Shown in pieces: positions 4,567 to 39,676 of a stretch of 64,000 nucleotides of DNA; position 1 is the stretch's first letter; each line of letters starts with the position of its first letter. The translations under genes were made by a program, and so were the position numbers. The stretch is from Verrucomicrobiia bacterium. Its GTDB lineage: Bacteria > Verrucomicrobiota > Verrucomicrobiia > Verrucomicrobiales > DEV007. The notes beneath the pieces are model-generated. The model searched no databases and was not told the DNA's origin. It saw nothing but the letters and a program-made list of their open reading frames with translations. The stretch is from assembly GCA_030427505.1 (NCBI GenBank), contig JAUICH010000003.1, positions 1-64,000 of the forward strand, written 5' to 3'.

Positions 4567-4657
4567 GACCAGTGAGAATGGGGCGGTGGGCACACACACA
4601 AAGGGCCGACATAAGCCGGCCCGTTGGGTATAGAGTTCTGTTGGCCGGAGCCGGGGG

Positions 4658-6223
4658 CTACTCCTTCGGGAGACCCAGGTTCCAGGCGTCATACATTTCC
4701 TGGGCGCTCGGCACTTTCAGGGGACGCACGATACGGAAACCCAGCCAAGGCGCGTCGGTGTGGTACCAGATGCTTTTCGGCAACTGTGGGTCCTGTACCT
4801 TCCAGGCTTCCGAAGATTTGAAACGCCCGGCGCTACGCAGGTCTTCGGGATAGTCATACCAGGAACCGCCACGGGCCACGCGGGGGTAAAGGGTGTTCGC
4901 CTTCACCCAGGGAGTCAGCACCGATGCGCTTCCTTCGCGATTGGCGTAGGTGTCGGCGGAGTATTGATCCAGGCACCACTCCATGACGTTGCCGTGCATG
5001 TCGTAGAGACCCCAGGGGTTCGGAAGCTTCTCGCCGACCTTCTGGTATTTGTCCTGCGCGTTGTCGTAGAACCAGCCGTAGTCCGCCAGCTTGGACGGGT
5101 CATCGCCAAAAGAGTAGGCCGAGTTCGTTCCGGCGCGGCAGGCGTATTCCCATTCCGCTTCCGTGGGCAGACGGTAGAAGTGTCCAGTCTGCGCGCTGAG
5201 CCACTGGCAGAATTTGTTCGCCGCGTGCTGCGTCATGGAGATGGCGGGGAATCCTTCCCGGCCCATGCCGAAGCTCATTTCCGTGTAGGGCGTGGTTGGG
5301 CTGGAAACAATGTCCACCGGCGCCGCGTCCGGGGCGATCTTCTCCGGAGAACCGTCTTTGTTCCGGGCCACGTCCGTGATCATGAAGGGCTCGTACATGT
5401 CCCAGGTCACTTCATATTTGCCCATCCAGAAGGGCTCGATCTTTACCTGGTTCTGTGGACCTTCATCGTCGCGGCGGCCTTCTTCGGTGTCAGGACTGCC
5501 CATTAGGAACTCGCCGCCCGGAATGGCCACCATTTCATAGGGCACGCCTGTCTTCGGAATTTCGCTGGCGTAGTCTTCCATCTTATCCTCTTCGGTGACG
5601 GTGGACTCGCCGAGGATCATCTCGCGCATCTGTTCGACCAGTTCCAGGTTGTCCGAGGGACCGCCCGCTTCTTCTTCGCCCGCGGCGCCCGCCAGGCTGA
5701 AACCTTCCGGCCATTCGCCGCCCTGTTCGACCCACATGCGCAGGAAGCCCAGCTCTTTCTCGTTGAAGGGGCCGCCCTTTTTCAGGAGCGGCAGGATGTT
5801 CACTTTGAAATCCATTCGCGGCACTTCGTTGAGCACCACTTCCTCCGGCCACTCGGCGCCGGCTTCCACCCAGCGGTGGAGGATGCTCTGCTGAAGCTTG
5901 TTGAGCTGCTTCTTCGGAGGCATCACCAAATCGTCATCCGCGGGCAACTCGCACATCCACACCACCGCGCTGTTTTCGGTGTCGCCGGGCTTGATCCCGG
6001 GAGCATAGTCACCGCCGCCCTTGAAGGCGTCAGCTTTGGTGTCGATCCGGAAATCGCCCTTTTGCTCTTTGGGCCCGTGGCAGTGGACACAGGAGGCTTC
6101 CAGAATCGGCTTCACATCCCGGGTGAAGTCCACGGCGGTCGCGGAATCTTCCTGGGCGCTGACTGCGGTGGCAGACAGTCCCCAAGCCAGACTCCATAGG
6201 AGGAGGTTGCGAGAAATTCTCAT
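4658..6223 (-). CDS. c-type heme domain fused to FGE/SUMF1-fold domain, catalytic Cys missing
   Basis: A 521-residue exported protein. The start at 6223 is chosen because a signal peptide begins there (residues 1-23, ending VSAQ). A planctomycete-type cytochrome c domain follows, with CVHCH at 45-49 and a distal MPPKK Met. After a linker, residues about 260-500 form a formylglycine-generating-enzyme-like (SUMF1/DUF323) domain with the family's typical GGEFLMGSP entry and a GLYDMHGNVMEW core. True FGEs carry two Cys after the RGGS motif; here RGGSWYDYPEDLRSAGR begins at about residue 451 and contains none. The domain is therefore probably a lectin-like or structural module, as in many PVC proteins, and not the maturase for the two sulfatases nearby. 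It probably forms a transcription unit with the multiheme gene downstream. Confidence 0.85.
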   Translation of the reverse strand: MRISRNLLLWSLAWGLSATAVSAQEDSATAVDFTRDVKPILEASCVHCHGPKEQKGDFRIDTKADAFKGGGDYAPGIKPGDTENSAVVWMCELPADDDLVMPPKKQLNKLQQSILHRWVEAGAEWPEEVVLNEVPRMDFKVNILPLLKKGGPFNEKELGFLRMWVEQGGEWPEGFSLAGAAGEEEAGGPSDNLELVEQMREMILGESTVTEEDKMEDYASEIPKTGVPYEMVAIPGGEFLMGSPDTEEGRRDDEGPQNQVKIEPFWMGKYEVTWDMYEPFMITDVARNKDGSPEKIAPDAAPVDIVSSPTTPYTEMSFGMGREGFPAISMTQHAANKFCQWLSAQTGHFYRLPTEAEWEYACRAGTNSAYSFGDDPSKLADYGWFYDNAQDKYQKVGEKLPNPWGLYDMHGNVMEWCLDQYSADTYANREGSASVLTPWVKANTLYPRVARGGSWYDYPEDLRSAGRFKSSEAWKVQDPQLPKSIWYHTDAPWLGFRIVRPLKVPSAQEMYDAWNLGLPKE

Positions 6224-6399
6224 ATTTCGGGGGCCTAATAAGTGTGAAAGCGCTGGGTTTGCAAGCTTTAGAGGCTCAAAAACCGGCTCATCACTATATC
6301 CCTCTACGGCTTGAGGAGGCAAAAACTTTCGCCCTTCCACCGTCTCGGTGGGGCCTCGAAAGCCGCTTGGAACTCAGTTTCCGGGCCGGAGATTCAATA

Positions 6400-17993: not shown

Positions 17994-19502
17994 CTACTTC
18001 CCCTCTGCCCGCCATTTTTTCTGCTGGGCAATATTCGTCTCCAAAACCTTGCGGGCGTTTTCGTCGCCTTTCTTGCGGGTAGTCAGATAGACCGCCATGT
18101 CGCTGTCGTAGGCTTTCATGGGTTCGGGGAACTGGCCCTGGTCGTTCGTTCGGGTGATCCAGGTTTCCAGGATCTTACGGTGACGGACCAATTCGTCCTG
18201 ATAGCCGGGATCGTCTGCAAGGTTGGTCAGTTCCCAGGGATCCTTTTCCAGATCGTAAAATTCCTCGGGGGCACGGTTGGGAGCGAAGAGCAGCTTTTCC
18301 GATAGCTCGGGCAGTTTGCCGGAATCGTGCAGTTCGTGGAGGCGGATCAGGATTTCCTTGTGATCCTTGTACCGGTTGGCCTGGAGCATGGGCCGTTCGG
18401 GCAGGAAATTACGGATATACTTGTATCCCGCCGTGCGAACGCTTCGCAGGTGATCGGTGGTTTCGTCGCAACGGTCGCGCGCGGAAACCACGTAGTCCCT
18501 GGGACGGGCCTTGTCTCTAAACAGGGGCCGGGCCTCCATCGTGTCAGGCAGGGGAATGCCCGCCAGGTCGAGCGAGGTCGCGGCGATGTCGATGTGCGCC
18601 ACCAGATCGGTGCGCACTTTTCCGGCCTCAATGCCGGGCCCGGCGATGATCAGCGGTACGCGAATGCCTTCCTCATAGAGGAACTGTTTCCCCCGCGCGT
18701 GGGACACCCCGTGATCGGTTAGGAAGATAACCACGGTATTGTCATACACACCGGCATCCTTCAATTCTTGCAGGATCTGCCCGACCTGTTCGTCCACCCA
18801 AAGGACGCTGTTTAGATACTGCGCCCAGTCTTCCAGGAGCACTGGGTCATTCGGGTAGTAGGGCGGCAGCGTGACCTCCGACGGCGTGACGAGCCGGTCT
18901 TCCGGGATTTCACCGCTCTTGTGCACGTTGCGGTTCTTGCCGCCGGCCAGTTGAATCTGCGCAAAGAAGGGCGTGCCCTCTGGCCGCTTTGTCCAGTCGT
19001 TGCCGTCGTAGAGATCCTTCGGGTACTCGAAGTTGTAGTCCGTTTTCCCAAGGGCGCCCGGCTTGGCTTTCGCCTGCTTCGGGGCGTTGGTGACGTAGTA
19101 GCCGGCCTCCCTGAAATACTCAGGCAACGTCTTGACGGTCTCGGGAAGCTGGATGTGCCATTCGCCCCGGCCGCTGCGGTGGTTGTGCGCGCCGATGGTC
19201 GTCTGATACATCCCCGTGATCATGGCCGAGCGTGAAGGCGAACATACCGGGCAGGTCACAAAGGCATTGTCGAATTTCGTGCCGCGCGCCGCCAGGGCAT
19301 CCACGTTCGGGGTCTGGATGGTGGTTTCGCCGTAGCAGGAAAAGTTTGGTGACATATCCTCCACCACGATCCAGAGGAGGTTCGGTTTCGCCTCTTCTCC
19401 GGCGGCGTTCGCGGACGGAATGGAAACCGTTACGCACAGCGCTGAAGCGACTAACAAAAGTACCAGGAAACGAAACAGGGGATTAGCAGTGGGCAGCATC
19501 AT
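17994..19502 (-). CDS. Exported sulfatase
   Basis: 502 residues with a signal peptide (about 1-33, ending ANA). The metal site entry is VVEDMSPNFSCYG and the formylglycine motif is CSPSR with Cys at residue 87. A second metal site, LTDHGVSHARGK, follows. It differs clearly from the 15 kb sulfatase: CSPSR instead of CSPTR, and an iduronate-2-sulfatase/heparan N-sulfatase-like order, with VEDMSPN in place of ADDLGYAD. The two enzymes probably remove sulfate from different positions. The gene is convergent with the two-gene module and 103 bases upstream of the oxidoreductase gene's end. Confidence 0.93.
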   Translation of the reverse strand: MMLPTANPLFRFLVLLLVASALCVTVSIPSANAAGEEAKPNLLWIVVEDMSPNFSCYGETTIQTPNVDALAARGTKFDNAFVTCPVCSPSRSAMITGMYQTTIGAHNHRSGRGEWHIQLPETVKTLPEYFREAGYYVTNAPKQAKAKPGALGKTDYNFEYPKDLYDGNDWTKRPEGTPFFAQIQLAGGKNRNVHKSGEIPEDRLVTPSEVTLPPYYPNDPVLLEDWAQYLNSVLWVDEQVGQILQELKDAGVYDNTVVIFLTDHGVSHARGKQFLYEEGIRVPLIIAGPGIEAGKVRTDLVAHIDIAATSLDLAGIPLPDTMEARPLFRDKARPRDYVVSARDRCDETTDHLRSVRTAGYKYIRNFLPERPMLQANRYKDHKEILIRLHELHDSGKLPELSEKLLFAPNRAPEEFYDLEKDPWELTNLADDPGYQDELVRHRKILETWITRTNDQGQFPEPMKAYDSDMAVYLTTRKKGDENARKVLETNIAQQKKWRAEGK

Positions 19503-21385: not shown

Positions 21386-23503
21386 ATGGGAAGGATTGCC
21401 AAGCTCTTGACCGTAGCCCTGCTGATAGGGGGGATCGTTGCCGGTCTCACCACGGCGGACTATTACCTCCGGCGTGAGCCGGTTGGCAAAGCGAAGCGGG
21501 ATTTGCAGTGGGAAGGCGTCCAGCCCAATACTCCCAACGCTCTGGCAGCGGCAGCCACCAACAAGGTGACCACTCTGCAAAACCTGCGCCTGGTGGGTGT
21601 TCCCCTGGAAGCGGCGGATCTGAATGGAGAAACCCCGCTGATGCTGGCGGTGCGGCGGGAGTCGCGTGAGGCAGTGGACTACCTGCTGAGTCTGAAAGAG
21701 ATGGCTTCCACCGTAAATGCCGAGTCTGGCCGGACCGGCCTCACCGCCATGGGCCATGCGCTGAGCCGCCGGGACTACGCTTTGGCGGAACGGCTTCGCG
21801 AACTGGGCGGATCGGTGGATGTTTCTCTGGAAACCGGTCTACCGGCTCTGGTGGAAGCCATTGCGATGGACGACGGCGAACTCCTGACCTATCTGCTGGA
21901 AAAAGCGGGTGCCGGTTTGGAGATGAAAGACGAAAAGGGCATGACGGCACTGGCCCACGCTTTGGAGATGGAACGGGGCGATCTGGTGACGCTGCTGCTG
22001 GATAAGGGCGCTTCGCTGGACGGACTCCGGAATGCAAAGGGTGAAAGCCTTCTGGGGCAGGCCGTGGAGACGGGGAATCATGACTTGGCGGCGCTCTTGC
22101 TGGGCTCGGAAAAGAACGCCGCGGAAATTCGTAATGCTTCCGGTCCGGAGTGGCTCTATGACGCGGTCGATGCCCAGGCCGTGGCCATGGTGGACCTGCT
22201 GCTTTCTCATGAAGCGGATCCTAATCTTGTTCCCAAGGGAGAGGCCATCCCACCATTGATGTTGGCGATCCGTCAGAACTCATTGCCCCTGGTGAGACTC
22301 CTGACCCGGCACGGCGCCAATGTCGAGGGGAGCGCCGTCGCCATATTGGGCTACGAGTCGGGAGACCGGGAGCTACTGATTGCCCTGCTGGGAGGCGGAG
22401 CCGACCCGGATGCCTGTTTTGAGAATGGCGAACGCCTGATCGAGCGGGCCCTTCGCGACCGGAACGCGGAGACCTTTCGCATTCTACTCGCCGCGGGAGC
22501 CCGGGTGGATGATTTGCTTTGGCCCGCCATGAAAGTGGCCAAAGACGAAAGCTACCTGGATGCCCTCCTTGAGGCCGGTGTCAGCCCAGAGTTTTCCGGT
22601 CCCAAAGGCGAGCTTCCGCTCAGCTTTGCCCTCAGAAAAAACCGGTTCGAACTGGCCAAAAAGCTACTCAAGTACGGTGCCGGTCCGAACCTGCAAACGC
22701 CAGAGGGAGAGCCCATGCTGGCGGCTGCCATTCGCGAGGGGAACGAAGGCGTTGCGACGCTGCTGATGGACAATGGAGCGTCCATTGCCGAAGACCTGAT
22801 GGCCGAGGATGGACACACGCTGTTGGAGTGGGCACTGGCTAATAAGATGCCCGAAATGGTGAAGCGGCTCGTGGCGAAAGGGGCGGATGTTTCCAGAGCC
22901 GTGCAGCACCCCGCCGGTGAAGCCTTCCGGGAGAAGTTCAAGAGCAGCACCTTCCGCTACTACTTGGAGAAAGACCGGGGCATCACGCCGCTGATGCTGG
23001 CGGTGGCGAAACAGGATCTGGACTCCGCCCGGGTGCTGCTGGACGCGGGCGCCAAGACCAGCGACTACACGAAGCGGGACTCGATTTGGCCGATCAACAT
23101 TGCCGCCTGGTTTTCGGATGTGCCCATGATGCAACTGCTCCTGGGCCGGAACCCCGATCCCAAGGAACAGGAGCGGGAAATCATCATCGACTTGGGCACA
23201 CAGGAAGCGACTCTCTATGTAAAGGGAGAGGAACAGCTTTCCACCCGGGTCTCTACCGGCAAGAAAGGCTATGGCACGCCGTCCGGCACCTACGTGGTGA
23301 CCAACAAGCACCGGGACTGGACCTCCACGCTGTATGACGCCAAGATGCCCTACTTCCTAAGGCTAAGCTGTAGCGCCTTTGGCCTGCACCAGGGCTACGT
23401 GCCGGACTACCCGGCTTCGCACGGATGCATCCGGGTGCCGGCTGGCACCGCGAAGAAGCTCTTCGAGATGGCGCAACTGGGCGACATCGTGAGGATCCAG
23501 TAG
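21386..23503 (+). CDS. Ankyrin-repeat protein with C-terminal L,D-transpeptidase (YkuD) domain
   Basis: 705 residues. An N-terminal membrane anchor or signal (about 4-24) is followed by roughly a dozen or more ankyrin repeats (about 65-590; for example ETPLMLAVRRESREAVDYLL and ITPLMLAVAKQDLDSARVLL). The C-terminus (about 593-705) is a YkuD domain with the complete active-site signature: His668, His679 and Cys681 in SHGCIR. Such enzymes make 3-3 cross-links in peptidoglycan or attach proteins to it. Fusing the domain to a long, presumably periplasmic ankyrin solenoid is unusual; ankyrins could position the enzyme on a protein partner. No other wall gene is adjacent. The AT-rich region upstream probably holds its promoter. 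Confidence 0.92.
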   Translation: MGRIAKLLTVALLIGGIVAGLTTADYYLRREPVGKAKRDLQWEGVQPNTPNALAAAATNKVTTLQNLRLVGVPLEAADLNGETPLMLAVRRESREAVDYLLSLKEMASTVNAESGRTGLTAMGHALSRRDYALAERLRELGGSVDVSLETGLPALVEAIAMDDGELLTYLLEKAGAGLEMKDEKGMTALAHALEMERGDLVTLLLDKGASLDGLRNAKGESLLGQAVETGNHDLAALLLGSEKNAAEIRNASGPEWLYDAVDAQAVAMVDLLLSHEADPNLVPKGEAIPPLMLAIRQNSLPLVRLLTRHGANVEGSAVAILGYESGDRELLIALLGGGADPDACFENGERLIERALRDRNAETFRILLAAGARVDDLLWPAMKVAKDESYLDALLEAGVSPEFSGPKGELPLSFALRKNRFELAKKLLKYGAGPNLQTPEGEPMLAAAIREGNEGVATLLMDNGASIAEDLMAEDGHTLLEWALANKMPEMVKRLVAKGADVSRAVQHPAGEAFREKFKSSTFRYYLEKDRGITPLMLAVAKQDLDSARVLLDAGAKTSDYTKRDSIWPINIAAWFSDVPMMQLLLGRNPDPKEQEREIIIDLGTQEATLYVKGEEQLSTRVSTGKKGYGTPSGTYVVTNKHRDWTSTLYDAKMPYFLRLSCSAFGLHQGYVPDYPASHGCIRVPAGTAKKLFEMAQLGDIVRIQ

Positions 23504-23588: not shown

Positions 23589-24947
23589 TTACTCAAGCGC
23601 CTTCCCAGTGATGTGGTGGCTGACGATCTTGTCCAGGTTTGGAGTTTCTTCCGGAAAGGCAATCTTGATCCCAGTATCTTCGCGGTCTGCCACAAACATA
23701 AACAGGCTGCCACTGAGCGGAGTGAGCGTCTCTCCGTTGTACTGGACGATGATTTGGTCCACCGATCCGTTTTTCCGGATCTCTTCGGCGGGCCAGGTCA
23801 CGGCGTAACGCTGACCGGGCTCAGTCTTTAGTCGAATCTCCACCGCGCGCGGGTTGATGGCGGAGACCTCCGCCGTCACTGGTTTGGCAATGGGGAACAC
23901 CCACTTCCGGTTGTTCTTGAGACTGCCGTTGTAGCCAATGATCTGTCCGGGTTGCATGACGAAATGACGGCCCTCAAGAGGCCGGGTCCTGACGGTCGCC
24001 GCGGCAAAGGAGCTCTTTCCGTCGAACCGGACCACGATGTCCGCTTCGTCGGCGACGCCGATGTAGCGGATCTCAAAATCGTAGTCGTCAGCCGTTCCCT
24101 GGATCTCGTCGAGCCCGCTCATCGCATAGCGAATCCCAGCGACGTCGTCAGCGCCAAGCCCTCGTCTGACGCCGCCCAGATCCAGGCTGCCTCCAGTGAT
24201 CATCAGCCCTTCCACATTAGCCAGCGAAAACGCGTTGCTCGCCGCCACCGAGCGCGCGCTCATGGTGGAGAAGACGGAGCCGCTGGGCAGGTCCTCTAGA
24301 TTCCGGCTGTAGGTGGTGGAGTCAAAGACTCCGCTGGTGGGCAGGGTGAAGGGGTTGTTGTCGGAGCGTTTGAAGTAGTTCAAGTTCACATCGTCCCCGC
24401 GAAGGTCGTCAGCGGTTCCACCGACGCCGTCCGGTCCCGGGTCGAGATCAAATTTCCCGTTCGGTCCCATCGCCGAGGCGGTGAATTTCTCTCTTGAACG
24501 GCGGGCACTTGGCTGCGGCCCCAGCGCGGGATGCGCCAGCCCCAGGGTGTGACCCATTTCGTGAGTCAGGACGCCAAAGACATCGGTTCCGTACTCCGCG
24601 GGAATCTCGACTGACGGACTTAGCGAAGCCGAAACCACCAGGCGATCATTCCAGATAGCGGCCGCTTGATTCGCGGAAAACGCGAAATCGGCTTCCAGTT
24701 CCGCAAAGTCGGAGTGAAGCGCGAGGGTTAGCTTCAAAGTTCCGCCTTGCCCGGTGTATCCGGCGGGGTGAACGACCGTGTCCGCGGGCTTCGCTCCTCC
24801 CGCGGTCACGTAGGCAAATCCGTCCGATTCTCTTACAAAACCCGGGAGGCAGCCCGCAACAACGATGAGAAAACCGAGGAAAAGCTTGGGGTTTACCCTG
24901 GTATTTCCCGTCTGGTTTCCCAGAAGTTTTCCGTTTTGCCGCCTCAC
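23589..24947 (-). CDS. Metzincin (matrixin-like) metalloprotease, probable lipoprotein
   Basis: 452 residues from a GTG start. The zinc site HEMGHTLGLAH (residues 129-139) is the full metzincin motif with three His and the catalytic Glu. The N-terminal segment has a VAGC lipobox with Cys33, so it is probably attached to the membrane. The region after the active site carries Asp-rich loops, and a C-terminal beta domain (about 300-452) of unknown type follows. It is the last gene of a close minus-strand run, 24 bases after the c-heme/LRR gene. A role in processing or degrading extracellular protein is inferred. Confidence 0.85.
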   Translation of the reverse strand: MRRQNGKLLGNQTGNTRVNPKLFLGFLIVVAGCLPGFVRESDGFAYVTAGGAKPADTVVHPAGYTGQGGTLKLTLALHSDFAELEADFAFSANQAAAIWNDRLVVSASLSPSVEIPAEYGTDVFGVLTHEMGHTLGLAHPALGPQPSARRSREKFTASAMGPNGKFDLDPGPDGVGGTADDLRGDDVNLNYFKRSDNNPFTLPTSGVFDSTTYSRNLEDLPSGSVFSTMSARSVAASNAFSLANVEGLMITGGSLDLGGVRRGLGADDVAGIRYAMSGLDEIQGTADDYDFEIRYIGVADEADIVVRFDGKSSFAAATVRTRPLEGRHFVMQPGQIIGYNGSLKNNRKWVFPIAKPVTAEVSAINPRAVEIRLKTEPGQRYAVTWPAEEIRKNGSVDQIIVQYNGETLTPLSGSLFMFVADREDTGIKIAFPEETPNLDKIVSHHITGKALE

Positions 24948-24971
24948 TTCCAGGGGGGATTAGGGAAGACT

Positions 24972-25910
24972 TTACTCCATGACCACCCGCGCGTCGGGAA
25001 GCGCCTGGCGAAGTTTCTCGGCACCGCCATCCGTGACGCTGGTTTGCCAGAAGTAGACCGACTTCAGATTGCGAAGCTGGGCGATCTTCGGAAGCGAGGC
25101 GTCAGACACGCTGGTGCCATAAAGGTTCAGGTATTCCAGGTGTTGAAGTTGGGCGATGGCATCGATGCTGGCGTCGGTGATTTGAGTATTGTGCAGATCG
25201 AGGTAAGTCAGCTTGCTAAAGCTGCCAATGATCTTGGCGCTTTGGTCCGTGATCGCCGCTTTGCTCAGGACCAATTCCGTAATGTTGGAACCAATGGAGG
25301 CGAGCTGGGATACGTGAGCGTCTTCGGGACGCATTTCCCCGGAGAGATATTCGACACGCAACAGAGGATTTCCCGGAGCCACGGGAGTGATGGTGGCCCC
25401 TTCCTTGGCCAGCGTATCCAGTACGTCCTTTCCGGCTTCCGTGGCGCCTTTAGCCAGGTTGTCCGCCGCGCTGGGAGCCATCTCCCGTTTCGTCAGCGAA
25501 ACCCCTTCTTCGTTACCCTTCCAGTTTCCGAAGTTGGCGCCCTCCTTGATCCACATGCCGATCGCGAGGATCTGGTTCTTGGTCAGAGGGCCTCCCTTGG
25601 GCGGCATGATGTCGTCATGGTTTTCCGGCAGGGCGATCAGCTCGTAAAGCAGGCTGCCTTCCGGGTCCCCCGGGACGATCACATCTCCACTGCTGCCTCC
25701 CTGTTCGATGGCCAGACGGCCATCCAGGCGAAGACCGCCCTTCGGCTGTTTCTTTTGACCATTCTCTTCATAGGGAGCGCGGTGGCAGTCGATACACTCG
25801 CTCTTCAGAATCGGCAGAATCTGAGATTCGAAGTTGATCTCGGCGTGAACAGAAGCGGTAAGGCCCAGCGCCGCTAAGGCGGCGATGGGCGCGATCAGTC
25901 GTCCAATCAT
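24972..25910 (-). CDS. c-type heme domain plus leucine-rich repeats
   Basis: 312 residues. The start at 25910 gives a signal peptide (1-23, ending VHA); the frame runs far upstream into the DUF1501 gene but has no coding character there. A planctomycete-type cytochrome c domain has CIDCH at 39-43 and a distal IMPPKGGP Met near 120. Residues about 205-312 form leucine-rich repeats of the LTYLDLHNTQITDASI type. The heme domain is the one normally fused to DUF1549/DUF1553 proteins; here it is a separate protein carrying a protein-interaction module. It lies between the DUF1501 and protease genes of the same run. Confidence 0.9.
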   Translation of the reverse strand: MIGRLIAPIAALAALGLTASVHAEINFESQILPILKSECIDCHRAPYEENGQKKQPKGGLRLDGRLAIEQGGSSGDVIVPGDPEGSLLYELIALPENHDDIMPPKGGPLTKNQILAIGMWIKEGANFGNWKGNEEGVSLTKREMAPSAADNLAKGATEAGKDVLDTLAKEGATITPVAPGNPLLRVEYLSGEMRPEDAHVSQLASIGSNITELVLSKAAITDQSAKIIGSFSKLTYLDLHNTQITDASIDAIAQLQHLEYLNLYGTSVSDASLPKIAQLRNLKSVYFWQTSVTDGGAEKLRQALPDARVVME

Positions 25911-25956
25911 GACTTCTCGAAAAAAGGGAGGATTTATTCTGGAGGTGGTTTCCGGA

Positions 25957-27267
25957 TCAGCCAAAGATATCGAACAAGGGCTGTCCGTGGTCAGCCACCA
26001 CAAAGGGACGCTTGGAGGCGGAGTAGATGATCTGCTCCAGCGGCAGGCCCAGCGCGTAGGCGATGGTGGCGTTGATCTGCTTCGGCTCCACGGGATTTTC
26101 GTCGATCCCTTTACCTTTCTTGTCCGTCTTACCGTAAGTCTGTCCGCCACGAATCCCGCCACCGGCAATGACGCAGGAGTAGGCGCGTGGGTAGTGGTCG
26201 CGGCCGTTGTTGTGGTTCCGCACAATGTCTGGCGTTCGCCCAAACTCCGTTCCCAGCACGACAATGGTTTCGTCCAGCATGCCGCGCCGATTCAGGTCCG
26301 CGAGCAGGGCGCTCATGCCCTGGTCCAGGATGGAGGCCTTGTCTTCCACGCTGTTGAAGTTGTCGTAGTGCGTGTCCCAACCGCCCAAGCCGACTTCCAC
26401 GAAGCGCACATTGTGCTCCACGAGACGGCGGGCCAGTAGACAGCCCTGGCCGAAACGGTCCGCGCCGTATTCTTCCACGACGCTGCCGGCTTCTTCGTTC
26501 AGGTCGAAGGCTTTGAGGTCTTCGCTCCGCATCAGCTTCACGGCTTCATAGTAGAGCTTTTGGTAGTCCGCCACCTGGGGCTGCTCGAACTGGTGGTGGA
26601 ACTTCTTGTTCATGGTTTCCGCCAGTTTCAGGCGGGTCTTGAACTCATCCTCTTCCACACCGTAGGGCAGCTTGCTGTCCTGCAGGCCATTGGCGGGTTC
26701 CTGCACCGGCACGGCGGCGAAGGACGTGCCCATGAAACCGGCGTCACCGGTGCCTCCACCCGTCGGGCTGATGGTCACATAGGGCGGGATGGTGGGATTC
26801 CGGCGTCCGGCCAGGCGCACCACCCAAGATCCCATGGAAGGGTGGCGGATGGTGCCACGCGGAGCGTAGCTGCGGTGGATCAGGTACTGCCCTTGTTCGT
26901 GGGCGCCCTGGTTGCTCTTCATCGAGTTGATGACGCACATCTTGTCCGCCTGTCCGGCCAGCTTGGGGAGATACTGGCTCAGCCGGACCCCGTCCGCATT
27001 GGTATTGATGGTTTCGATTCCCCCGTTGATGTCTTCACCTCCGTCCGGTTTCGGGTCGAATGTGTCCACGTGGCTCATACCGCCGGACATGTTCAGGAAG
27101 ATGACAGACTTGGCCGTCTTAGTCCGGCGCGCGGGTTCGCTGGCGGCGAAAACCGTTTCTTCCCCAACAAGTGAGCCCAGCATCGGGGCAAGGGAAACGC
27201 CCAGATACTTGTAGGCGGAATTCACCATGAACTGGCGGCGGGTCAGTTCGTCGAAGTTCGTTTTCAT
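25957..27267 (-). CDS. Tat-exported DUF1501 protein
   Basis: 436 residues with a twin-arginine signal (TRRQFM, residues 9-14). DUF1501 has an alkaline-phosphatase/sulfatase-like fold. Metal-ligand-like motifs are visible: LNMSGGMSHVDTFDPK near the N-terminus, GGWDTHYDN in the middle, and LGTEFGRTP with NGRDHYP near the C-terminus. There is no formylglycine CxPxR motif, so it is not a type I sulfatase. The family almost always accompanies DUF1549/DUF1553 proteins, as here (72 bases downstream of that gene). The biochemical activity is not established. Confidence 0.92.
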   Translation of the reverse strand: MKTNFDELTRRQFMVNSAYKYLGVSLAPMLGSLVGEETVFAASEPARRTKTAKSVIFLNMSGGMSHVDTFDPKPDGGEDINGGIETINTNADGVRLSQYLPKLAGQADKMCVINSMKSNQGAHEQGQYLIHRSYAPRGTIRHPSMGSWVVRLAGRRNPTIPPYVTISPTGGGTGDAGFMGTSFAAVPVQEPANGLQDSKLPYGVEEDEFKTRLKLAETMNKKFHHQFEQPQVADYQKLYYEAVKLMRSEDLKAFDLNEEAGSVVEEYGADRFGQGCLLARRLVEHNVRFVEVGLGGWDTHYDNFNSVEDKASILDQGMSALLADLNRRGMLDETIVVLGTEFGRTPDIVRNHNNGRDHYPRAYSCVIAGGGIRGGQTYGKTDKKGKGIDENPVEPKQINATIAYALGLPLEQIIYSASKRPFVVADHGQPLFDIFG

Positions 27268-27339
27268 GGATCTCAGAGGTGGGATGGTGGCGGTAGGGAT
27301 CGGGGTTCTTTTAATTGGGAGTGACCTGTAGCTCTCTGC

Positions 27340-29358
27340 TTACTGAACGAACAGAAACTCGGAGGTGTTCAGGAGAGTCCAGATGAAGTCTTCGCGGGCT
27401 TTTTCCTCGGTATCCACCTCATCATAGTGCTGGGCCAGGATCACGAGTTCCTCGTCAGTGGGCTCGCGATTCAGGATGGCCAGGTAGAGCCGTTTCACGA
27501 TGTCGCCGGGAGAATCCACGTCCGCGATCGTTTTGTAGATCACCGCGTCCTGGTTTCCGACGATGTTCTGCTGGACGTGGCCGTTGATAAGGGAAAGCAC
27601 CTGCGTGACGTCCGATTCGCGGCTTCCGTTTTCAATGACCTCGCGGTCGGACTGGCCGAAGCGGCGCAGGAAGTGAGAAGCCGGAGCCGGTGAGGGCAAC
27701 TCGGAAGCGCGAACCAGGGAGGGGGAAAAACCCTTCCACTGGGAGTCGTCGATACCAGCCGCTGACGTGATGCCGCCGCTGCCGCCGCCGCCCATCATCA
27801 TGCTGTCTCCTCCGCCGTTGTAGTTGACGGGAATGGAATTAGCCGAGCTGATCTGACCCATCAGGTCGCGGGCGTAGCTCTCGACCTGATCGGCGGTCAG
27901 GCCAATGGTGTCCTGGTAGAGATCGGACATGGTCTTCTGACCCACCAGCACATATTGGCCGCGCAGTTGGATCCAATCCCGGTTGTAGATGCTTTCCCGC
28001 TCGTCCGGAGCCGGAATGGTCAGGGCCAGCATGGAATCCCAAATCTGCTCGGCGGACATGCGCTGCAGCAGACGGCCATTGAAGGCGTAGGGAAGGCCCG
28101 GGTCGTGAGCTTTGGGGTTGGGGCCCAGCTGGTAGGTCCGGGTGTTGTAGAGGATGCGCAGGAACGCTTTCTGGTCCCAGTTCACTTTCGCGATCAGATT
28201 CGCCAGATGCTTCCAGAGTTCCGGGTGGGAAGGGTCCCGCTTGGAGTCCGGATCCGCGTCGAACATGAGGTCCACATTGTCCAGCGGCTCATAGAGGCCA
28301 AAACCCATGGCGCGTTTCCAGAGGCGGTTGGCGATCATCAGGCCGAAGCGCGGATTTTCTTGAGAGGTCAGCCATTCGGCGAATTCGTAGCGGGCGTCGT
28401 CCGCCTCGCGCTTGTCGCTGAACCGCAGGGACTGTCCGAAGGGAGCCTTGGCGCCGACCATTTCGCCCGGATCGCCATCGCTGTACTTGTAGTCCATCGG
28501 CAACTCGATCTGGCCCGTGCCACCGCCTTTGATGCCGTAGCGCCAAATCGAATAGTCGATCATCCGGAGCAGGGCATACATCTCGCTGCGGGGGCCGCCG
28601 TTGCGATACATCATTCCGAGCTTCCGGCGCTCTTCGTAGCCTTTCTCTTCCTCAATGCCCGCGGTGAACGCGGCGGTTTCGAAGAAGTCCATTTGCTCCC
28701 ATTTCGCGAAGGGGTGGTTGTGACACTGCGCGCATTCCATCCGGGTACCCAGGAAGATCCGCATGGTATTGGCCATGTTGTCCAGCGGCATGCCCTTGTC
28801 CCGCTCGTAATAGCCGACCGCGCCATTTCCTTCCGCCCAGCCGCCGCCGGAAGAACCCAGCAGGGCCTTCACAAACTCATCATAGGGCATGTTGTTTTCG
28901 ATCGCGCCTTTCAGCCAGATGATGTAGGAAGCCGCGTTCGTTTGGTTATTGAAAAACCGGGAAGTCGCCCGCAGCACGTCGGCCCAATAGTTATACGTGT
29001 GGCTGTTGTAGCCCGGAGAATCCAGCAGGGTATTGACCAGCCGGGGACGCTTGTTCGGGTCCTGATCTTCCAGGAAAGCGGTGGTTTCTTCGTAGGTGGG
29101 AATCCGTCCCACGATGTCCAGGTAAACCCGCCGCACGTACTGCTGATCCGTGGCCATCGGCATGGGGCTCACATTGTATTGCCGGAAACCATCCCCAATG
29201 AATTTGTCGATCTTGAAAGCTTCCGCTTTTACGAACTGAGGATCGCTGAAGTCCTGCTGAGCTCCACCGCGGGAGTTTAGTTGAGCTTGGGCATTCACGG
29301 CCCCAAAGGACAGGGCGAGAACGCTGAGGATGACAGTCGGGCGCATTTTCATAGACAT
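27340..29358 (-). CDS. DUF1549/DUF1553 exported protein lacking the N-terminal heme domain
   Basis: 672 residues from the Met at 29358, where the signal peptide begins (ending AQA). DUF1549 spans about residues 40-240 and includes the internal CAQCHNHPF heme-type motif. DUF1553 spans about 310-660 (FAEWLTSQENPRFGLMIANR is its typical entry). A Gly/Met-rich loop (GGGDSMMMGGGGSGG) interrupts the second domain. Most relatives start with a planctomycete-type cytochrome c domain, as the 36.7 kb paralogue does. Here that domain is missing and instead encoded by the gene at 24972-25910. It is probably a periplasmic redox-linked glycan or protein catabolism component. Confidence 0.92.
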   Translation of the reverse strand: MSMKMRPTVILSVLALSFGAVNAQAQLNSRGGAQQDFSDPQFVKAEAFKIDKFIGDGFRQYNVSPMPMATDQQYVRRVYLDIVGRIPTYEETTAFLEDQDPNKRPRLVNTLLDSPGYNSHTYNYWADVLRATSRFFNNQTNAASYIIWLKGAIENNMPYDEFVKALLGSSGGGWAEGNGAVGYYERDKGMPLDNMANTMRIFLGTRMECAQCHNHPFAKWEQMDFFETAAFTAGIEEEKGYEERRKLGMMYRNGGPRSEMYALLRMIDYSIWRYGIKGGGTGQIELPMDYKYSDGDPGEMVGAKAPFGQSLRFSDKREADDARYEFAEWLTSQENPRFGLMIANRLWKRAMGFGLYEPLDNVDLMFDADPDSKRDPSHPELWKHLANLIAKVNWDQKAFLRILYNTRTYQLGPNPKAHDPGLPYAFNGRLLQRMSAEQIWDSMLALTIPAPDERESIYNRDWIQLRGQYVLVGQKTMSDLYQDTIGLTADQVESYARDLMGQISSANSIPVNYNGGGDSMMMGGGGSGGITSAAGIDDSQWKGFSPSLVRASELPSPAPASHFLRRFGQSDREVIENGSRESDVTQVLSLINGHVQQNIVGNQDAVIYKTIADVDSPGDIVKRLYLAILNREPTDEELVILAQHYDEVDTEEKAREDFIWTLLNTSEFLFVQ

Positions 29359-29619
29359 CGGGTTATGACGGATCTGGGCGGTTTTCTTAAAATTCAGAGA
29401 ATTCGGCAACAGTAAAATTCGTGGATCCGGGACCAACGGCATCCGGCACGCGGCGATCTCTGGCTGATCTCCACTGGCTTCGGGGGCCTGAGGAAATCTT
29501 GGTGACCAGTATGCCGGATTTACAATGTAATGATCAAGAACGAACTAAGATGAAAAGAAAAGCGGTGGACGAGAGCAAAATTTGCTCAATGAGTGACGCC
29601 CTTCTTGGATGGATTTCGC

Positions 29620-30522
29620 CTAATTCACTTGGAAAGGGAACTCAATCGTCTCTTCGTTCCGGATCGTTCCCGAGGGGGTGGAGAGGTCCAAGTTGAAGGG
29701 GCGGGCCAGGCTGTTGCCCGCCAAGTCTTCCAAAACAGTTCGAACGATCAGGATGTAGCCTCCCGGCGACCAGTGGGTTTCCGGCTTCGAAGGGTGCAGA
29801 AGTAAGGTCTGAGCTTCCGGATCGTATTCTGAAACCAGGTCCAGGGGCGTTGTGCTTGAAGGCGAACCCGCCAGGCGAACGGTGAAACAGGACAGGACCA
29901 GGGCCCGGTCCAGGGGTTCGTCAAAATGGATATGCAGGGCGTCTCCCGGCGTTTGGCTCCGTGGGGAAGTCAGGACCCACCGGGCAGGATCGGGCTGAGT
30001 ATTGTCCATGGGACCAGCCGTGAACTCCTTGGAAACGGGTTCTGAAAGTGGAACGCCCCGTTCGCTGCGCCACTCGCCAGATACTGTCAGCTGGTAGCGC
30101 TTTCCTTCTTCCAGAATCGGGCCGATCTCGACATTCAAATTCACTCCCGGTTTCTGGCGTCCGGGGTGAAACCAGAGGGTTAGCCGGGTGCCGGTCTCGT
30201 CCCACAGTTCCACCTCGCGGAAAGGTTCGGGCACCAGCTTCCCACTGTCCAAGTCCGTCAGAGAGAAGTGCCGGAACACGTCGCCCCGGGCCAAGGGCTC
30301 GGAAAAGTAAAGGTAGAACTTCAGGTGATTGGCCGGCAGCGTGGGAACCGCGGGAAAGATGGCTTCCAGGACAGGGGGCTTCTCTTCCCGGGCGGTGGCG
30401 CCAGTCTGACCGCCGCCGGCCAGGGCAAAGGCGGCTGCCCAACCGGCCCCCAACATGGCCACGACCAGAGCCAGCTTTCCGGGCGCGAAGAAGGAAGGGG
30501 TATGAACGCGGATTCGGCTCAT
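29620..30522 (-). CDS. Exported protein with two Ig-like (SbsA/Big_5-type) domains
   Basis: 300 residues with an N-terminal membrane segment (about 14-36). Two repeats follow the SbsA Ig-like pattern: one near residues 50-165 (NHLKFYLYFSEPLARGDV) and one near 180-290 (DALHIHFDEPLDRALV). These domains are usually structural or ligand-binding parts of surface proteins. No catalytic motif is visible. It starts 19 bases after the propeller gene ends, so co-transcription is very likely; the 261-base gap to the DUF1549 gene shows nothing recognisable. Confidence 0.8.
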   Translation of the reverse strand: MSRIRVHTPSFFAPGKLALVVAMLGAGWAAAFALAGGGQTGATAREEKPPVLEAIFPAVPTLPANHLKFYLYFSEPLARGDVFRHFSLTDLDSGKLVPEPFREVELWDETGTRLTLWFHPGRQKPGVNLNVEIGPILEEGKRYQLTVSGEWRSERGVPLSEPVSKEFTAGPMDNTQPDPARWVLTSPRSQTPGDALHIHFDEPLDRALVLSCFTVRLAGSPSSTTPLDLVSEYDPEAQTLLLHPSKPETHWSPGGYILIVRTVLEDLAGNSLARPFNLDLSTPSGTIRNEETIEFPFQVN

Positions 30523-30541
30523 TGGCCAGAGCCTACTCCCC

Positions 30542-31693
30542 TCAGGGCAGGGTCACCAGTTCCAGGGTGTGGGTGCCGCTTTCCGTTTCGCGCAGGACTA
30601 TTACCTCCGCGTTGTCGAGCTGGCTGACATGAACCGCCCCGAAAAGCTCGTCGATGACTTCGATGCCTTTGGCGTCAGGTCCGCTGGGGGCATTCACATT
30701 CCGGCGGATGGCGTTTTCGTTGGTATCCTCCGGTTCGTCCGCGTCCAGGTACTCCATCTTCACCCGGGCCGCCCAAAAGGCGCTGGGGCCGAACAGGTTA
30801 TCCTTGAAGCGCTGGGTGTTGGTCACCAGCCATTCCTGTCCGTCTTTCACGTAGGTGAACATGTCGCGGGGACGGTTGCCAGAGCCGAGTTCCACCACGC
30901 TGGTGCCCTTGATATTGGCGCCGGACTCGATGTCGGACAGGGGAAACTTCGCGATCGGCGTGCAGGCGAAGGCCCCCACCACGTAAAATTTCCCCGCGCT
31001 TTCGTAGGGAATGAAGGACTGAATGGGCGCCTTGGTTTCCCAACGCTTGTGCGAAACATGATAGGTCTCCGCGCTGAAAAACTCCGCCGTCTGACCATGA
31101 GTGAGCGGAATCGGAATCTGATAGATCTTATTGGCAAACTCTTCCGCGGACTGGCCCGCCACGATAATGCTGAAGTCAGCGAAGGCCAGGTCGGTCACGT
31201 TGCGCAGCTTTCCGGCTTCCGTGGAGGGCAGGGAAATCTTCACATACTCGGCTCTGGAAAGTTCGACTTCGGACACGTTTCCCGCCGCATCCACCGAGAC
31301 CAGGGAGGGCTTGTTGCCTGGCTGAGTGTTTAGGGAAAAGTACACTTTCCCGCTAGCCGGATTCACGGCCATATCCACGATGGTCACCTGCTCGGGAGCC
31401 ACTTCCTTCGCCTTGGCAATGACGGCATCAATGTCCGCAACCGGCTCTTGCAGTCTTTCCGCCGGCCCGGTGTCGCCCGTATCCACCGCGACAATGACCG
31501 CGGCGCGCGGGTCGGAGATGAGCAAGAGCCCGTCCGGACCAAAAGCGATCTTTCCCGCGGAACTCAGCTCCAGGCTGCCTTTCTGGGTGTTTTCAAAGAA
31601 ACGTTCGGCGACTTCTTCGGCCCGAGTCACCGGAGCCATGGAAAGACTAACGAAAAAGAAAATGGGGCCGGCCAGAAACGGAAGGATCTTCAT
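30542..31693 (-). CDS. Exported protein, probable beta-propeller, function unknown
   Basis: 383 residues with a signal peptide (about 1-25, ending TRA). The body is rich in short beta blades of the type GKIAFGPDGLLLISDP and KVYFSLNTQPGNKPSLVSVD, consistent with a six- or seven-bladed NHL/SGL-like propeller. There is no heme motif and no obvious active site. It is the promoter-proximal gene of the six-gene minus-strand run ending at 23589. The 265-base divergent gap upstream should contain the operon promoter, which I cannot place. Confidence 0.75.
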   Translation of the reverse strand: MKILPFLAGPIFFFVSLSMAPVTRAEEVAERFFENTQKGSLELSSAGKIAFGPDGLLLISDPRAAVIVAVDTGDTGPAERLQEPVADIDAVIAKAKEVAPEQVTIVDMAVNPASGKVYFSLNTQPGNKPSLVSVDAAGNVSEVELSRAEYVKISLPSTEAGKLRNVTDLAFADFSIIVAGQSAEEFANKIYQIPIPLTHGQTAEFFSAETYHVSHKRWETKAPIQSFIPYESAGKFYVVGAFACTPIAKFPLSDIESGANIKGTSVVELGSGNRPRDMFTYVKDGQEWLVTNTQRFKDNLFGPSAFWAARVKMEYLDADEPEDTNENAIRRNVNAPSGPDAKGIEVIDELFGAVHVSQLDNAEVIVLRETESGTHTLELVTLP

Positions 31694-35263: not shown

Positions 35264-36700
35264 TCAGGCCAGCACGCCCTTCACCACTTCGCCATACACA
35301 TCCGTCAGGCGGAAATCCCGGCCCGCGTAGCGGTAGGTCAGGTGTTCGTGATTGATGCCGAGGAGGTGGAGAATCGTCGCGTGCAGGTCGTGCATGTGCA
35401 CCTTGTCAGATACGGCGTAGTAGCCGTAGTCATCCGTCTCGCCAAAGCTGAGCCCGGCTTTCACTCCGGCGCCCGCCATCCAGATGGTGAAGCCGGCGGG
35501 ATTGTGGTCCCGGCCGTTGCTGCCCTGCACGATGGGAGTGCGTCCGAACTCCGTGCCCCACACCACCAGGGTGTCTTCCATCAGGCCGCGCTGCTTCAGG
35601 TCGGTCAACAGACCGGCAATCGGCTTGTCCACCGCGAGCGCATTCTTCTCGTGACCCTTGCGGAGGTTGCCGTGTTGGTCCCACACATAGGCGGTCGAAG
35701 CCTGCACAAAGCGCACACCCGCTTCGGAAAAGCGGCGGGCCATCAGGCAGCGGCGGCCGAAGTCGTCCGTTTCGTCAGTGCCGATGCCATACAGATCCTG
35801 GATGTAGCCGGGCTCCCCGCTGAGGTCCAGCAACTCAGGCGCCACGCCCTGCATGCGGTAGGCGAGTTCGTAACTCTGGATGACGCCTTCGATTTGCGCG
35901 TCCTGGTGGGAGCGTTCCAGGTGATCGCGATTCAAATCCTGGAGAAACGCCAATTGCCGCTGCTGGAGCCGGGAACTGTCTCCTTCCCGGTGTCCCAGGT
36001 AGCGGATGGTGGCGTCCTTGGTCTTCATGCCGGAGTGGCCGATGGCCGTGGCCTGATGCTCCGCGGGCAGGAAGGCGGAACCGTAGTTCCGGGGCCCGCC
36101 GTGTCCGCGCGGCGGGGTGATGGAGACGAAAGCGGGCAGGTCGCGGTTTTCCGTGCCGAGGCCGTAGCTCACCCAGGCGCCCATGGAGGGCCGCACCAGG
36201 TTGTCCGTGCCGGTGTGGAGCATGCACACCGCCTGACCGTGGGACGTCCCCTTGGTGTGCATGGACTTGATGAAGCACAGATCGTCGATGTGTTCGCCGA
36301 CGTGGGGCCACAGGTCGCTCACCCAGTTTCCGCTTTGTCCGGTCTGCCGGAAGCTCCAGGGAGTTCCCAGGATCTTGCCCTGGGCCCCATCCTTGGTGGC
36401 GTCCAGGTTGCTCAACCCCTCGAAGGGCAGGGGATTGCCGTCTTCCTTGGTGAGCCGTGGTTTGTAGTCAAACGAATCTACCTGAGACACGCCGCCGTGC
36501 ATGAAGAGGAAAATGACCCGCTTTGCCTTCGGCTCGAAATGCGGCCGGCCCACGGAGGGGTAAGCCGTGTTGGCGGCGGAAGCGATCTCGGCGGCCAGGG
36601 TGTGAAAGGCGAGGGCTCCAAACCCGCAGCCCGCGTTCCGCAAGAACGAACGGCGCGACGTGTCCAGAGGAGCAAAACGATGACAGGCGGAAGTCTTCAT
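35264..36700 (-). CDS. Tat-exported DUF1501 protein (second locus)
   Basis: 478 residues with twin-arginine signal SRRSFLRN (residues 15-22). DUF1501 motifs: [26 protein letters not shown] and WGTEFGRTP followed by NGRDHNP. It diverges from the 26 kb DUF1501 in length and linker content, and belongs to a different subgroup. It begins translation after the DUF1549/DUF1553 gene ends 21 bases upstream, the standard PVC gene pair. Probably a periplasmic hydrolase-fold partner of that protein; the activity is not established. Confidence 0.93.
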
Positions 36701-36721
36701 GGAGCAGCGCGGTTCGGTTCC

Positions 36722-39676
36722 TCAGTTCAGGTAGCGGAATTCGGTGGAGGCAAAAAGCATGTGAGCCAGCGAAGCCAGGGCTTCCTCTGGGGACTGGCCT
36801 TCATCGTTGGCCATCTCCCTGACAAAGGTCAGAGCCCGGTCGATTTCGTAGGCGGACGGTTCCCGCGAAAAGGCACGGAGATAGAGGTCGCGCACCTGGC
36901 TTTCCGGGTCGTCAGGTTCGGCCATCCGGAGCTGGCCCGCTAAGTCCCGAGACAGGGAACCGACCAACTCACTGTTCAGCATAAGCAGCGCCTGCGTGGG
37001 TACCGTGGTGGCCTGACGGTTTCCGGTAACCATGTCCGGGTTCGCCATGTCGAAGGTTTCCAGGAAGGGCGGCATGTCGTTTCTCACCATGGGCATGTAG
37101 AGGCTTCGCTTTCTCAGGCCGTCGAGGGTCAAACCGCCGCTCTGATTGGCGGAGTTCGCAATGGCCTGCTCGCCCAAGTCATCCACGGGAGACTGATCGG
37201 TCTCGGGGTCAAGTTGGCCGGACACCGCAAGCAAGGCATCCCGGATCGCTTCGGCGGAAAGGCGCCGCCGGTTCTGTTTCCAGAGCAGGCGGTTCTCCGG
37301 GTCGGCCTGCGCCGCGAGGATTTCCGTGGCCGGGTCGGGATCGGCGGACTGCCGGTAGGCGCGGGAGAGCACGATTTCCCGGACCAGGCTTTTCACCGAC
37401 CAGCCAGATTCGATGAACTGAACCGCGAGCTGGTCGAGCAGTTCCGGATGGGAGGGCCGGTCTCCGAGTTCTCCAAAGTTGTCCACCGTCCGCACGAGCC
37501 CACTGCCGTGCAGGTGGTGCCAGACCCGGTTCACCATCACGCGAGCCGTCAGCGGATTCGCCGGGCTGGCCAGCCACCCGGCCAGTTCCAGGCGGCCGCT
37601 TTCGTTCTCCCCGATCTTGGGCAGATGTTCCCCCGGAAGGCTGGCCACCTGAAGGAACCCGCGCTCCGCCACTGGGCCCAGGTTTCTCACTTCGCCGCGA
37701 ATCCGGATGTTCACGTCACCGGTTTTCTCCCGGTCCTGGGCGGCCATGGCCATGGGCACTTCCGGAGCCTGCTTTTCCAATGCCTTCAGGTCGCCTTCCA
37801 GGGACTTCAGCTTTCCGGAAGCCTCCGCGTAGAGCGCCCGCGCTTTTCCAAAGGGGGAGTCCTGCTTCTCCTTCTCAAGATCCGCCACGGGGATGAACTG
37901 AACGGCGTCGGCAATGATGTAGCCGCGGGTCCCCTCCGTCTTCATCTGGACGAATCCGCTTTTCCCGCCCTCAAAGTGAAAACGCCCCAGAACATCCCAC
38001 ATGCCAGCGATGGGCGGTTGGGTGGATTGATTCACAATCAACGTTTCCTCGCCGCCCGCATGGACCACGGTGACCGGCACCGCTTCGTCCCGTCCGGAAC
38101 TCGCCGCATATGAGATTCTGACTTCATACTCACCGCTTCCGGGCAGGCTGGGCCGCCAGGTGACGGACTTCTTGCCCTTGTCCGCCTTGTTATCGTGCAG
38201 ATAGCCTTCGCCATAGAAATTCGGGCTGTGGGTGGAACTCGTCCAGTCGCCCACCACTTCGGCGTCCTTGTCATCCACCACGACTCCCAGCAACGCGGCT
38301 TCCTCCAGGCCGGCTTCCCGTTTCAGGGCTTCCACTTCCTTGGTGAGAGAGGCGATCTGTTTTTCCAAATCCTGCTTCTCCTCCTGATAGGCCACCAGCT
38401 TCGCCTCCAACTCTGGCGACATCGGCAGTTCCCGCTCGATCCAGCCCGACACATTCACATTCCCCATCCGAATGCCGTGAGCGGTGTAGGTGGAGCGGAA
38501 GATTCCCGCCAGGGCATAGTAGTCCCGCGCCGGAATGGGATCGAACTTGTGGTCGTGACAGCGGGCGCAGCCTAGCGTCATCCCCATGAAGACCCGGCCC
38601 ACGGTGTCGATCTGCTCGTCCGCGATATCCAGGTGCATCTTTTCCTTGTCCCGTTCGGACAACATCTTGGGACCCATGACGAGGAAACCGGAACCAATGA
38701 GCTGCTCGGCCCGTTGGTCCGGGTTGTCGTAGGGCAGGAGATCGCCCGCGATCTGTTCGCGGATGAACTGGTCGTAGGGTTTGTCCGCGTTGAAGGCATC
38801 CACCACATACTGCCGGTAGCGCCAGGCGTTGTGGTAAGTGAGATTGATGTCGCCGCCGTTCGAGTCCGCGTAGCGGGCCAGGTCCAGCCAGTGACGGCCC
38901 CATTTTTCTCCAAACTGGGGCAAAGCCAACAGCCGGTCCGCCGTCGCCGCGAGGGTCCGTTCGGGATCGGCTTCGTAGTCTGAAATAAATTGGCTCAGTT
39001 GTTCCGGGGAAGGCGGCAAGCCGACGAGATCGAAATACAAGCGCCGCGCCAGCACCGCTGCGTCCGCGTCCGGGGCCGGGTGAAAAGTCTTCTCTTCCAA
39101 CTTCGCCAGGATAAAGCGATCCATGTCCCCACGAGGCCAACTGGCGTCTTTCACCGCGGGCGCGGCGTGAGGCTGGGGAGCTTGAAAGGCCCAGAACTGG
39201 CGCCCGGCTTCGATGTCGATCCCTTCGGCTTCCGGCAGGGGAGCCGTGTTCTCATGACGCGGGTCCGGCGCGCCCATTTTGATCCACTTTTCGAAGTCGT
39301 GGATGACGTCTTCGGACAGCCGTTCCTTCGGCGGCATTTCCGGAAATTCGGAGTCGTAGCGCAAGCTCTTGACCAGAATGCTGTCTTCCGGATCGCCCGG
39401 CACCAGGGTGGGTCCGGAGTCGCCTCCGCGCATCATGCCGTCCCTCGAATCCAGGAAGAGCCCTCCCTTCAGCTTTTCAGAGTCCGCGGAATGGCACTGA
39501 TAACAGTGCTCCACCAGCACGGGACGGATCTTGGACTCGAAAAACTCCAGGTGTTCCGGGCTCTTCGCCACCGGATCTTCCGCCCAGACATCCGTCACCA
39601 AGCCAACGGCACACAAAGGAACCGCTAACAGGCTGATCCTATAGGAAAGGGATCTTCTGGTCTGTAGCAAAGGCAA
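36722..39676 (-). CDS. c-heme/DUF1549/golvesin-like/DUF1553 exported protein
   Basis: 984 residues. Planctomycete-type cytochrome c domain after the signal peptide with CYQCH at 58-62, then DUF1549 (about 185-395, with its CARCHDHKFDP motif). A coiled coil (about 430-455) is followed by a golvesin-like beta domain (about 465-605; VTWRPSLPGSGEYEVRISY), and then DUF1553 (about 690-960). It is the fused counterpart of the three-gene set at 24.9-29.4 kb. No ATG is available: the first usable codon is TTG at 39676, where the signal peptide begins, and no Shine-Dalgarno sequence is visible, so the exact start is uncertain. Confidence 0.93.
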   Translation of the reverse strand: MPLLQTRRSLSYRISLLAVPLCAVGLVTDVWAEDPVAKSPEHLEFFESKIRPVLVEHCYQCHSADSEKLKGGLFLDSRDGMMRGGDSGPTLVPGDPEDSILVKSLRYDSEFPEMPPKERLSEDVIHDFEKWIKMGAPDPRHENTAPLPEAEGIDIEAGRQFWAFQAPQPHAAPAVKDASWPRGDMDRFILAKLEEKTFHPAPDADAAVLARRLYFDLVGLPPSPEQLSQFISDYEADPERTLAATADRLLALPQFGEKWGRHWLDLARYADSNGGDINLTYHNAWRYRQYVVDAFNADKPYDQFIREQIAGDLLPYDNPDQRAEQLIGSGFLVMGPKMLSERDKEKMHLDIADEQIDTVGRVFMGMTLGCARCHDHKFDPIPARDYYALAGIFRSTYTAHGIRMGNVNVSGWIERELPMSPELEAKLVAYQEEKQDLEKQIASLTKEVEALKREAGLEEAALLGVVVDDKDAEVVGDWTSSTHSPNFYGEGYLHDNKADKGKKSVTWRPSLPGSGEYEVRISYAASSGRDEAVPVTVVHAGGEETLIVNQSTQPPIAGMWDVLGRFHFEGGKSGFVQMKTEGTRGYIIADAVQFIPVADLEKEKQDSPFGKARALYAEASGKLKSLEGDLKALEKQAPEVPMAMAAQDREKTGDVNIRIRGEVRNLGPVAERGFLQVASLPGEHLPKIGENESGRLELAGWLASPANPLTARVMVNRVWHHLHGSGLVRTVDNFGELGDRPSHPELLDQLAVQFIESGWSVKSLVREIVLSRAYRQSADPDPATEILAAQADPENRLLWKQNRRRLSAEAIRDALLAVSGQLDPETDQSPVDDLGEQAIANSANQSGGLTLDGLRKRSLYMPMVRNDMPPFLETFDMANPDMVTGNRQATTVPTQALLMLNSELVGSLSRDLAGQLRMAEPDDPESQVRDLYLRAFSREPSAYEIDRALTFVREMANDEGQSPEEALASLAHMLFASTEFRYLN

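Follow-up and report, generated by a model that had tools for sequence, protein, structure and literature searches.

A run of six consecutive, uninterrupted open reading frames (ORFs) on the minus strand of a Verrucomicrobiia bacterium (Verrucomicrobiales; DEV007) appears to be made up of three modules, each conserved on its own, that lie side by side by happenstance. Its core, a cassette of three genes, would encode an exported two-heme redox unit that is served by a cytochrome in trans and to which we assign no substrate, while a propeller/Ig pair and a protease on either side of it would be bystanders. We put the probability of this explanation, taken as a whole, at roughly 0.6. The run occupies positions 23589-31693 of the window, i.e. 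of the 64,000-nucleotide stretch that was analysed (positions 1 to 64,000 of contig JAUICH010000003.1, assembly GCA_030427505.1).

Layout of the run and its three modules

All six genes are present on one strand just where an earlier note on this DNA had placed them, and the run is bounded at both ends by plus-strand genes, one at 31959 and a convergent one ending at 23503. The latter (21386-23503, +) encodes a protein of 705 aa whose many ankyrin repeats are followed by a terminal L,D-transpeptidase (YkuD) domain. Read along the minus strand, module B comes first and comprises an exported beta-propeller protein of 383 aa (30542..31693) and an exported Ig-like (Big_5-like) protein of 300 aa (29620..30522). 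Module A, the cassette, consists of the genes for a DUF1549/DUF1553 protein (PSCyt2 plus PSD1, without PSCyt1; 27340..29358), a DUF1501 protein with a twin-arginine (RRQF) signal (25957..27267) and a secreted protein combining a PSCyt1 cytochrome c domain with leucine-rich repeats (PSCyt1-LRR; 24972..25910). Module C is a single gene for a metzincin-like metalloprotease (23589..24947), the start of which is uncertain (24947 or 24896).

The gap between modules B and A (29359..29619) measures 261 bp and is the largest of the run, the remaining ones being 19-75 bp; its extent follows from the ORF coordinates and from the start codon at 29358, which was picked from an alignment of homologues within an ORF spanning 27340-29442. 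Because this largest gap falls at the boundary of the two modules, the bystander modules probably have separate promoters. A promoter scan returned no minus-strand promoter-like sites within the run, and terminator-like sites were slightly above shuffled sequences, most of them inside genes or on the opposite strand.

The earlier note had treated the six genes as one functional set, had called for a survey of their neighbourhoods and had accepted that a lack of the set in every relative would speak against it. With three of the six proteins as queries against 115 genomes of the order, and with ORF-based gene calls in 55 neighbourhoods, we found the full set in none of the 114 other genomes, which is the outcome that refutes it; core A alone is kept. 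Six genomes (G007, G011, G015, G016, G036 and G045) have an orthologous cassette as well as a distantly related propeller gene, and in each the two lie on different contigs.

Module B has a history of its own. The propeller gene yields no Pfam match, but its AlphaFold2 model (pLDDT 88.9, 21 homologues) aligns in VIA-align to many unrelated propellers with Z of about 13-15.6 and no specific match (best Z 15.6, rmsd 3.4 over 249 residues), so that the identification as a propeller holds at the level of a confident model. Homologues, at most 69% identical, occur in 40 of the 114 other genomes. Of the 29 homologous loci that were fetched, 28 have the Ig-like gene, whose Big_5 match (E 1.7e-4) is just below the cut-off, directly after the propeller gene. 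A module A cassette was never found at these loci, nor did an unfused DUF1549 gene adjoin the propeller homologue; at three of them (L096, L097 and L103), a fused PSCyt1-DUF1549 gene lies a few kb off.

The protease scores 21.8 bits against Peptidase_M10 (matrixin; cut-off 24). Its zinc motif HEMGHTLGLAH (HExxHxxGxxH) is invariant at the motif positions in five homologues, and an invariant methionine (M259) lies about 140 residues past it. Of the description as a metzincin lipoprotein, the first half is in keeping with an invariant motif, whereas the lipobox (VAGC) is found in the window copy alone and is missing in four homologues. Homologues of the protease occur in four of the 114 other genomes, with neither module A nor module B alongside. 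The protease had also been read as a possible hint that protein rather than glycan is the target, a suggestion that we drop: lying outside the conserved unit, it provides no argument for a protein substrate. In genome G007, a protein of another family with a metzincin motif (HEIAHNLGCQH) is encoded directly behind a cassette (L076 4949-7060, minus strand).

A three-gene cassette shared by two phyla

The first protein of module A matches PF07583 with 159 bits (cut-off 29.8) and PF07587 with 103 bits (cut-off 28.5). No PF07635 (PSCyt1) match was found in 27340-29442; this domain sits in 24972-25910 instead, where it reaches 46.6 bits (cut-off 22, E 5e-12) and is joined by LRR_4 (E 2e-9). The DUF1501 protein matches PF07394 with E 3.7e-112. 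PSCyt1 and LRR_8 were matched in all 16 members of the PSCyt1-LRR family, in which the residues of the CxxCH motif (C38, C41 and H42) and the methionine of an MP motif (M101) are invariant, making M101 the putative distal heme ligand. Judging by their Sec-, Tat- and Sec-type signals, respectively, the DUF1549, DUF1501 and cytochrome proteins would all be exported and are hence placed outside the cytoplasm.

DUF1549 is PSCyt2, itself named as a cytochrome domain. The view that the DUF1549 protein of this locus lacks a heme domain is therefore right as regards PSCyt1 but misses a CxxCH motif of its own: ECAQCH lies within its PSCyt2 domain, and all 105 aligned DUF1549 homologues have a CxxCH (CAQCH, CAKCH or CNKCH). 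This invariance changes the reading of the architectures concerned, since fused and split forms both bear two motifs in total, either in one chain (PSCyt1 plus PSCyt2) or one in each of two cassette proteins. With heme sites predicted from these motifs, a two-heme assembly is suggested; genes for cytochrome c assembly are found in the genome. Two Opitutales/Verrucomicrobia loci (L164 and L166) have three CxxCH motifs in the PSCyt1-LRR protein and two in the DUF1549 protein.

How long has this cassette been kept? Behind each of the closest DUF1549 homologues (41-49% identity), which come from two families of the order, DUF1501 and next PSCyt1-LRR are encoded in the same direction whenever the contig extends far enough. 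When the DUF1549 alignment was run against 84,980 species genomes, yielding a sample of at least 80 loci with organism names, the same order and strand proved to extend to at least 39 distinct loci, including that of the window, in Verrucomicrobiales, Opitutales and Planctomycetota. On a quick tree of 105 proteins (LG+G4), the cassette label changes 8 times compared with a mean of 31.7 for shuffled labels, and it fills three clades almost completely. Within these clades, the exceptions are five loci where the contig breaks off soon after DUF1549, plus a pair from Akkermansiaceae (L131 and L132) in which the third gene is truly missing. Flanking genes differ by lineage, meaning that the conserved core comprises three genes, and a conserved fourth gene was considered and rejected on these grounds; in Opitutales, for instance, the flank gene resembles by eye a SufS-type cysteine desulfurase, an ordinary housekeeping function. 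By this distribution, the core cassette is old and common to Verrucomicrobiota and Planctomycetota.

With cytochrome and LRR labels assigned by profiles derived from members of the cassette itself, a PSCyt1-LRR gene lies behind 41 of 83 unfused DUF1549 loci that either have an adjoining gene or reach far enough downstream to judge (three of the 41 being repeat copies), and behind none of five fused PSCyt2 genes with enough DNA in this wider set, a small sample. The other 42 unfused loci have enough downstream DNA and no adjacent cytochrome-LRR gene, a 36-row clade with Prosthecobacter among them, which argues against an obligatory cytochrome in cis; at such loci, it may act in trans or be dispensable. 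The source genome holds 14 matches to relatives of the cytochrome-LRR protein, so its partnership with DUF1549 need not be exclusive.

Fused and split forms

The window also contains the fused form, a PSCyt1-PSCyt2-Golvesin_C-PSD1 protein (36722-39676, minus strand) with its own DUF1501 partner (35264-36700, minus strand). The two loci have PSCyt1, PSCyt2, PSD1, DUF1501 and two CxxCH motifs in common; the fused locus (35264-39676) differs in that everything lies in one chain, without LRRs and with an extra Golvesin_C domain. The window DUF1549 proteins are only 23-26% identical and the two DUF1501 proteins 29%. PSCyt1 occurs in further company elsewhere in the window: one protein (4658-6340, minus strand) joins this cytochrome domain to an FGE-sulfatase (sulfatase-modifying factor) domain. 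A 1494-aa protein (208-4692, minus strand) carries DUF6797 and several cytochrome c domains toward its C-terminal side.

According to the match lists of our searches, the genome has 43 PSCyt2 loci and 54 PSCyt1 sites. PSCyt1 is in the reading frame of PSCyt2 at 34 of the 43 loci, leaving nine unfused, and a free-standing PSCyt1 lies within 4 kb of three of the nine unfused but none of the 34 fused PSCyt2 loci (Fisher p = 0.007; one genome). This pattern of fusion and adjacency suggests a joint action of PSCyt1 and PSCyt2, be it in cis or in trans. Such fusion-type evidence would link PSCyt1 with PSCyt2; the LRR as the element that holds them together lies beyond it.

Two propositions of the earlier note thus stand: that fused and unfused forms coexist, and that the unfused DUF1549/DUF1553 protein comes with a separate LRR-bearing c-type cytochrome, an association kept across two phyla. 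A third, that the protein has been divided at this locus, does not. The proximity of both forms, within 10 kb in the window, might suggest breakage of a fused gene on the spot, yet an identity of 23-26% argues against the split copy being a fused one that broke, and a split clade spanning two phyla refutes a local event; we regard such a breakage as barely conceivable. Going by the same comparisons, the split proteins make up an old subfamily.

Clues to the fold of the DUF1549/DUF1553 protein are few. Its AlphaFold2 model is poor (pLDDT 61), and a Foldseek search with it returned nothing below E 0.2, nearly all matches being phycobilisome linkers. Residues ~70-96 of the window protein (27340-29358, minus strand; RRVYLDIVGRIPTYEE), at the start of DUF1549, resemble residues ~619-646 (KRLYLAILNREPTDEE), at the end of DUF1553, where the C-terminal copy has a weak, sub-threshold match to DUF4214; the two segments may be copies of one helical unit repeated within the protein. 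As for DUF1501, the best matches of its profile to the PDB are mostly sulfatases, at E values of 0.3-1 that are not significant but would fit the distant sulfatase/alkaline-phosphatase-like fold generally ascribed to it. A DUF1501 match also lies within 1.5 kb of 16 of 20 DUF1800 loci in these Verrucomicrobia (L209-L228). Counting DUF1800, there are thus two or more alternative partners for DUF1501. Homology between DUF1549/DUF1553 and DUF1800 was suspected because of this common partner and was rejected for want of proof (hhalign P 0.002, probability 5-13%, with two alignments pairing different regions). The DUF1800-DUF1501 gene pair has been described (PMC5122149) and resembles the cassette in that DUF1501 has a conserved neighbour, but differs from it in that, by profile comparison, DUF1549/DUF1553 is not reliably homologous to DUF1800.

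Another precedent is found in the main text of He et al. (2017, PMC5615132), according to which freshwater Verrucomicrobia carry a PSCyt2/PSD1 gene adjoining a conserved unknown gene, an arrangement first known from Rhodopirellula baltica (work cited in PMC5615132); He et al. suggested carbohydrates as the substrate from carbohydrate-binding modules and sulfatase neighbours. Our cassette is like these genes in its domains, in the constant family of the PSCyt2 neighbour (here DUF1501), in the many copies per genome and in a nearby sulfatase gene (here 17994-19502), and unlike them in that PSCyt1 resides in a separate LRR protein encoded by a third gene. Such a cytochrome-LRR third gene is absent from that main text, and our literature search found no account of one.

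A candidate mechanism and its rivals

If the run is composite, the three core proteins would act together in the periplasm as a two-heme redox unit, with one heme in the DUF1549 protein and one in PSCyt1-LRR. The latter would be the electron-transfer subunit in trans, filling the role that the N-terminal PSCyt1 domain may have in the fused paralogues, with its LRR as a contact surface and DUF1501 as a hydrolytic partner. The LRR is a possible docking element. More specifically, PSCyt1-LRR could be a dedicated subunit that docks via its LRR onto an unfused DUF1549/DUF1553-DUF1501 enzyme, such that fusion and LRR assembly would be interchangeable, a refinement that we put forward tentatively and consider somewhat improbable as it stands.

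The main challenge to such a unit is that DUF1549/DUF1553 and DUF1501 might be the functional pair, with the cytochrome-LRR protein as no more than a frequent neighbour, either a general electron carrier of the periplasm or a surface protein unrelated to them. Its absence from about half of the unfused loci, its widespread, multi-copy relatives and the pairing of DUF1501 with DUF1800, both at our own loci and in PMC5122149, would all fit. However, its gene takes the same position in three clades of two phyla, and PSCyt1 is usually fused to PSCyt2 elsewhere while free-standing copies lie near unfused ones only; we deem a functional pair rather unlikely on balance. The other challenge concerns the run as a whole, since all six genes could form one functional operon in this lineage, a recently assembled protein-processing unit for which the propeller, Ig-like protein and protease were recruited to a redox cassette. 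An uninterrupted single strand between opposite-strand genes, short gaps with one exception and the metzincin-motif protein behind the G007 cassette, albeit of a different family, speak for it. Yet the set is found in no other genome of the 115, the outer modules are conserved without the core, the exceptional gap of 261 bp separates the propeller/Ig pair from the cassette, and a single metzincin across the 38 other cassettes may be a chance occurrence, leaving a single operon distinctly unlikely in our view. We thus continue to favour a composite run whose three-gene core would be the functional unit.

Genomes of Planctomycetota and Verrucomicrobiota each encode DUF1549, DUF1553 and DUF1501 dozens of times, with no function that we know of. 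The unfused three-gene version is easier to express and dissect than the fused giants, and it makes heme binding, binding of the parts to one another and oxidation or hydrolysis of substrates directly testable. Should the docking proposal be true, there would be two interchangeable routes, covalent fusion and LRR-mediated assembly, that bring a second heme to the same enzyme.
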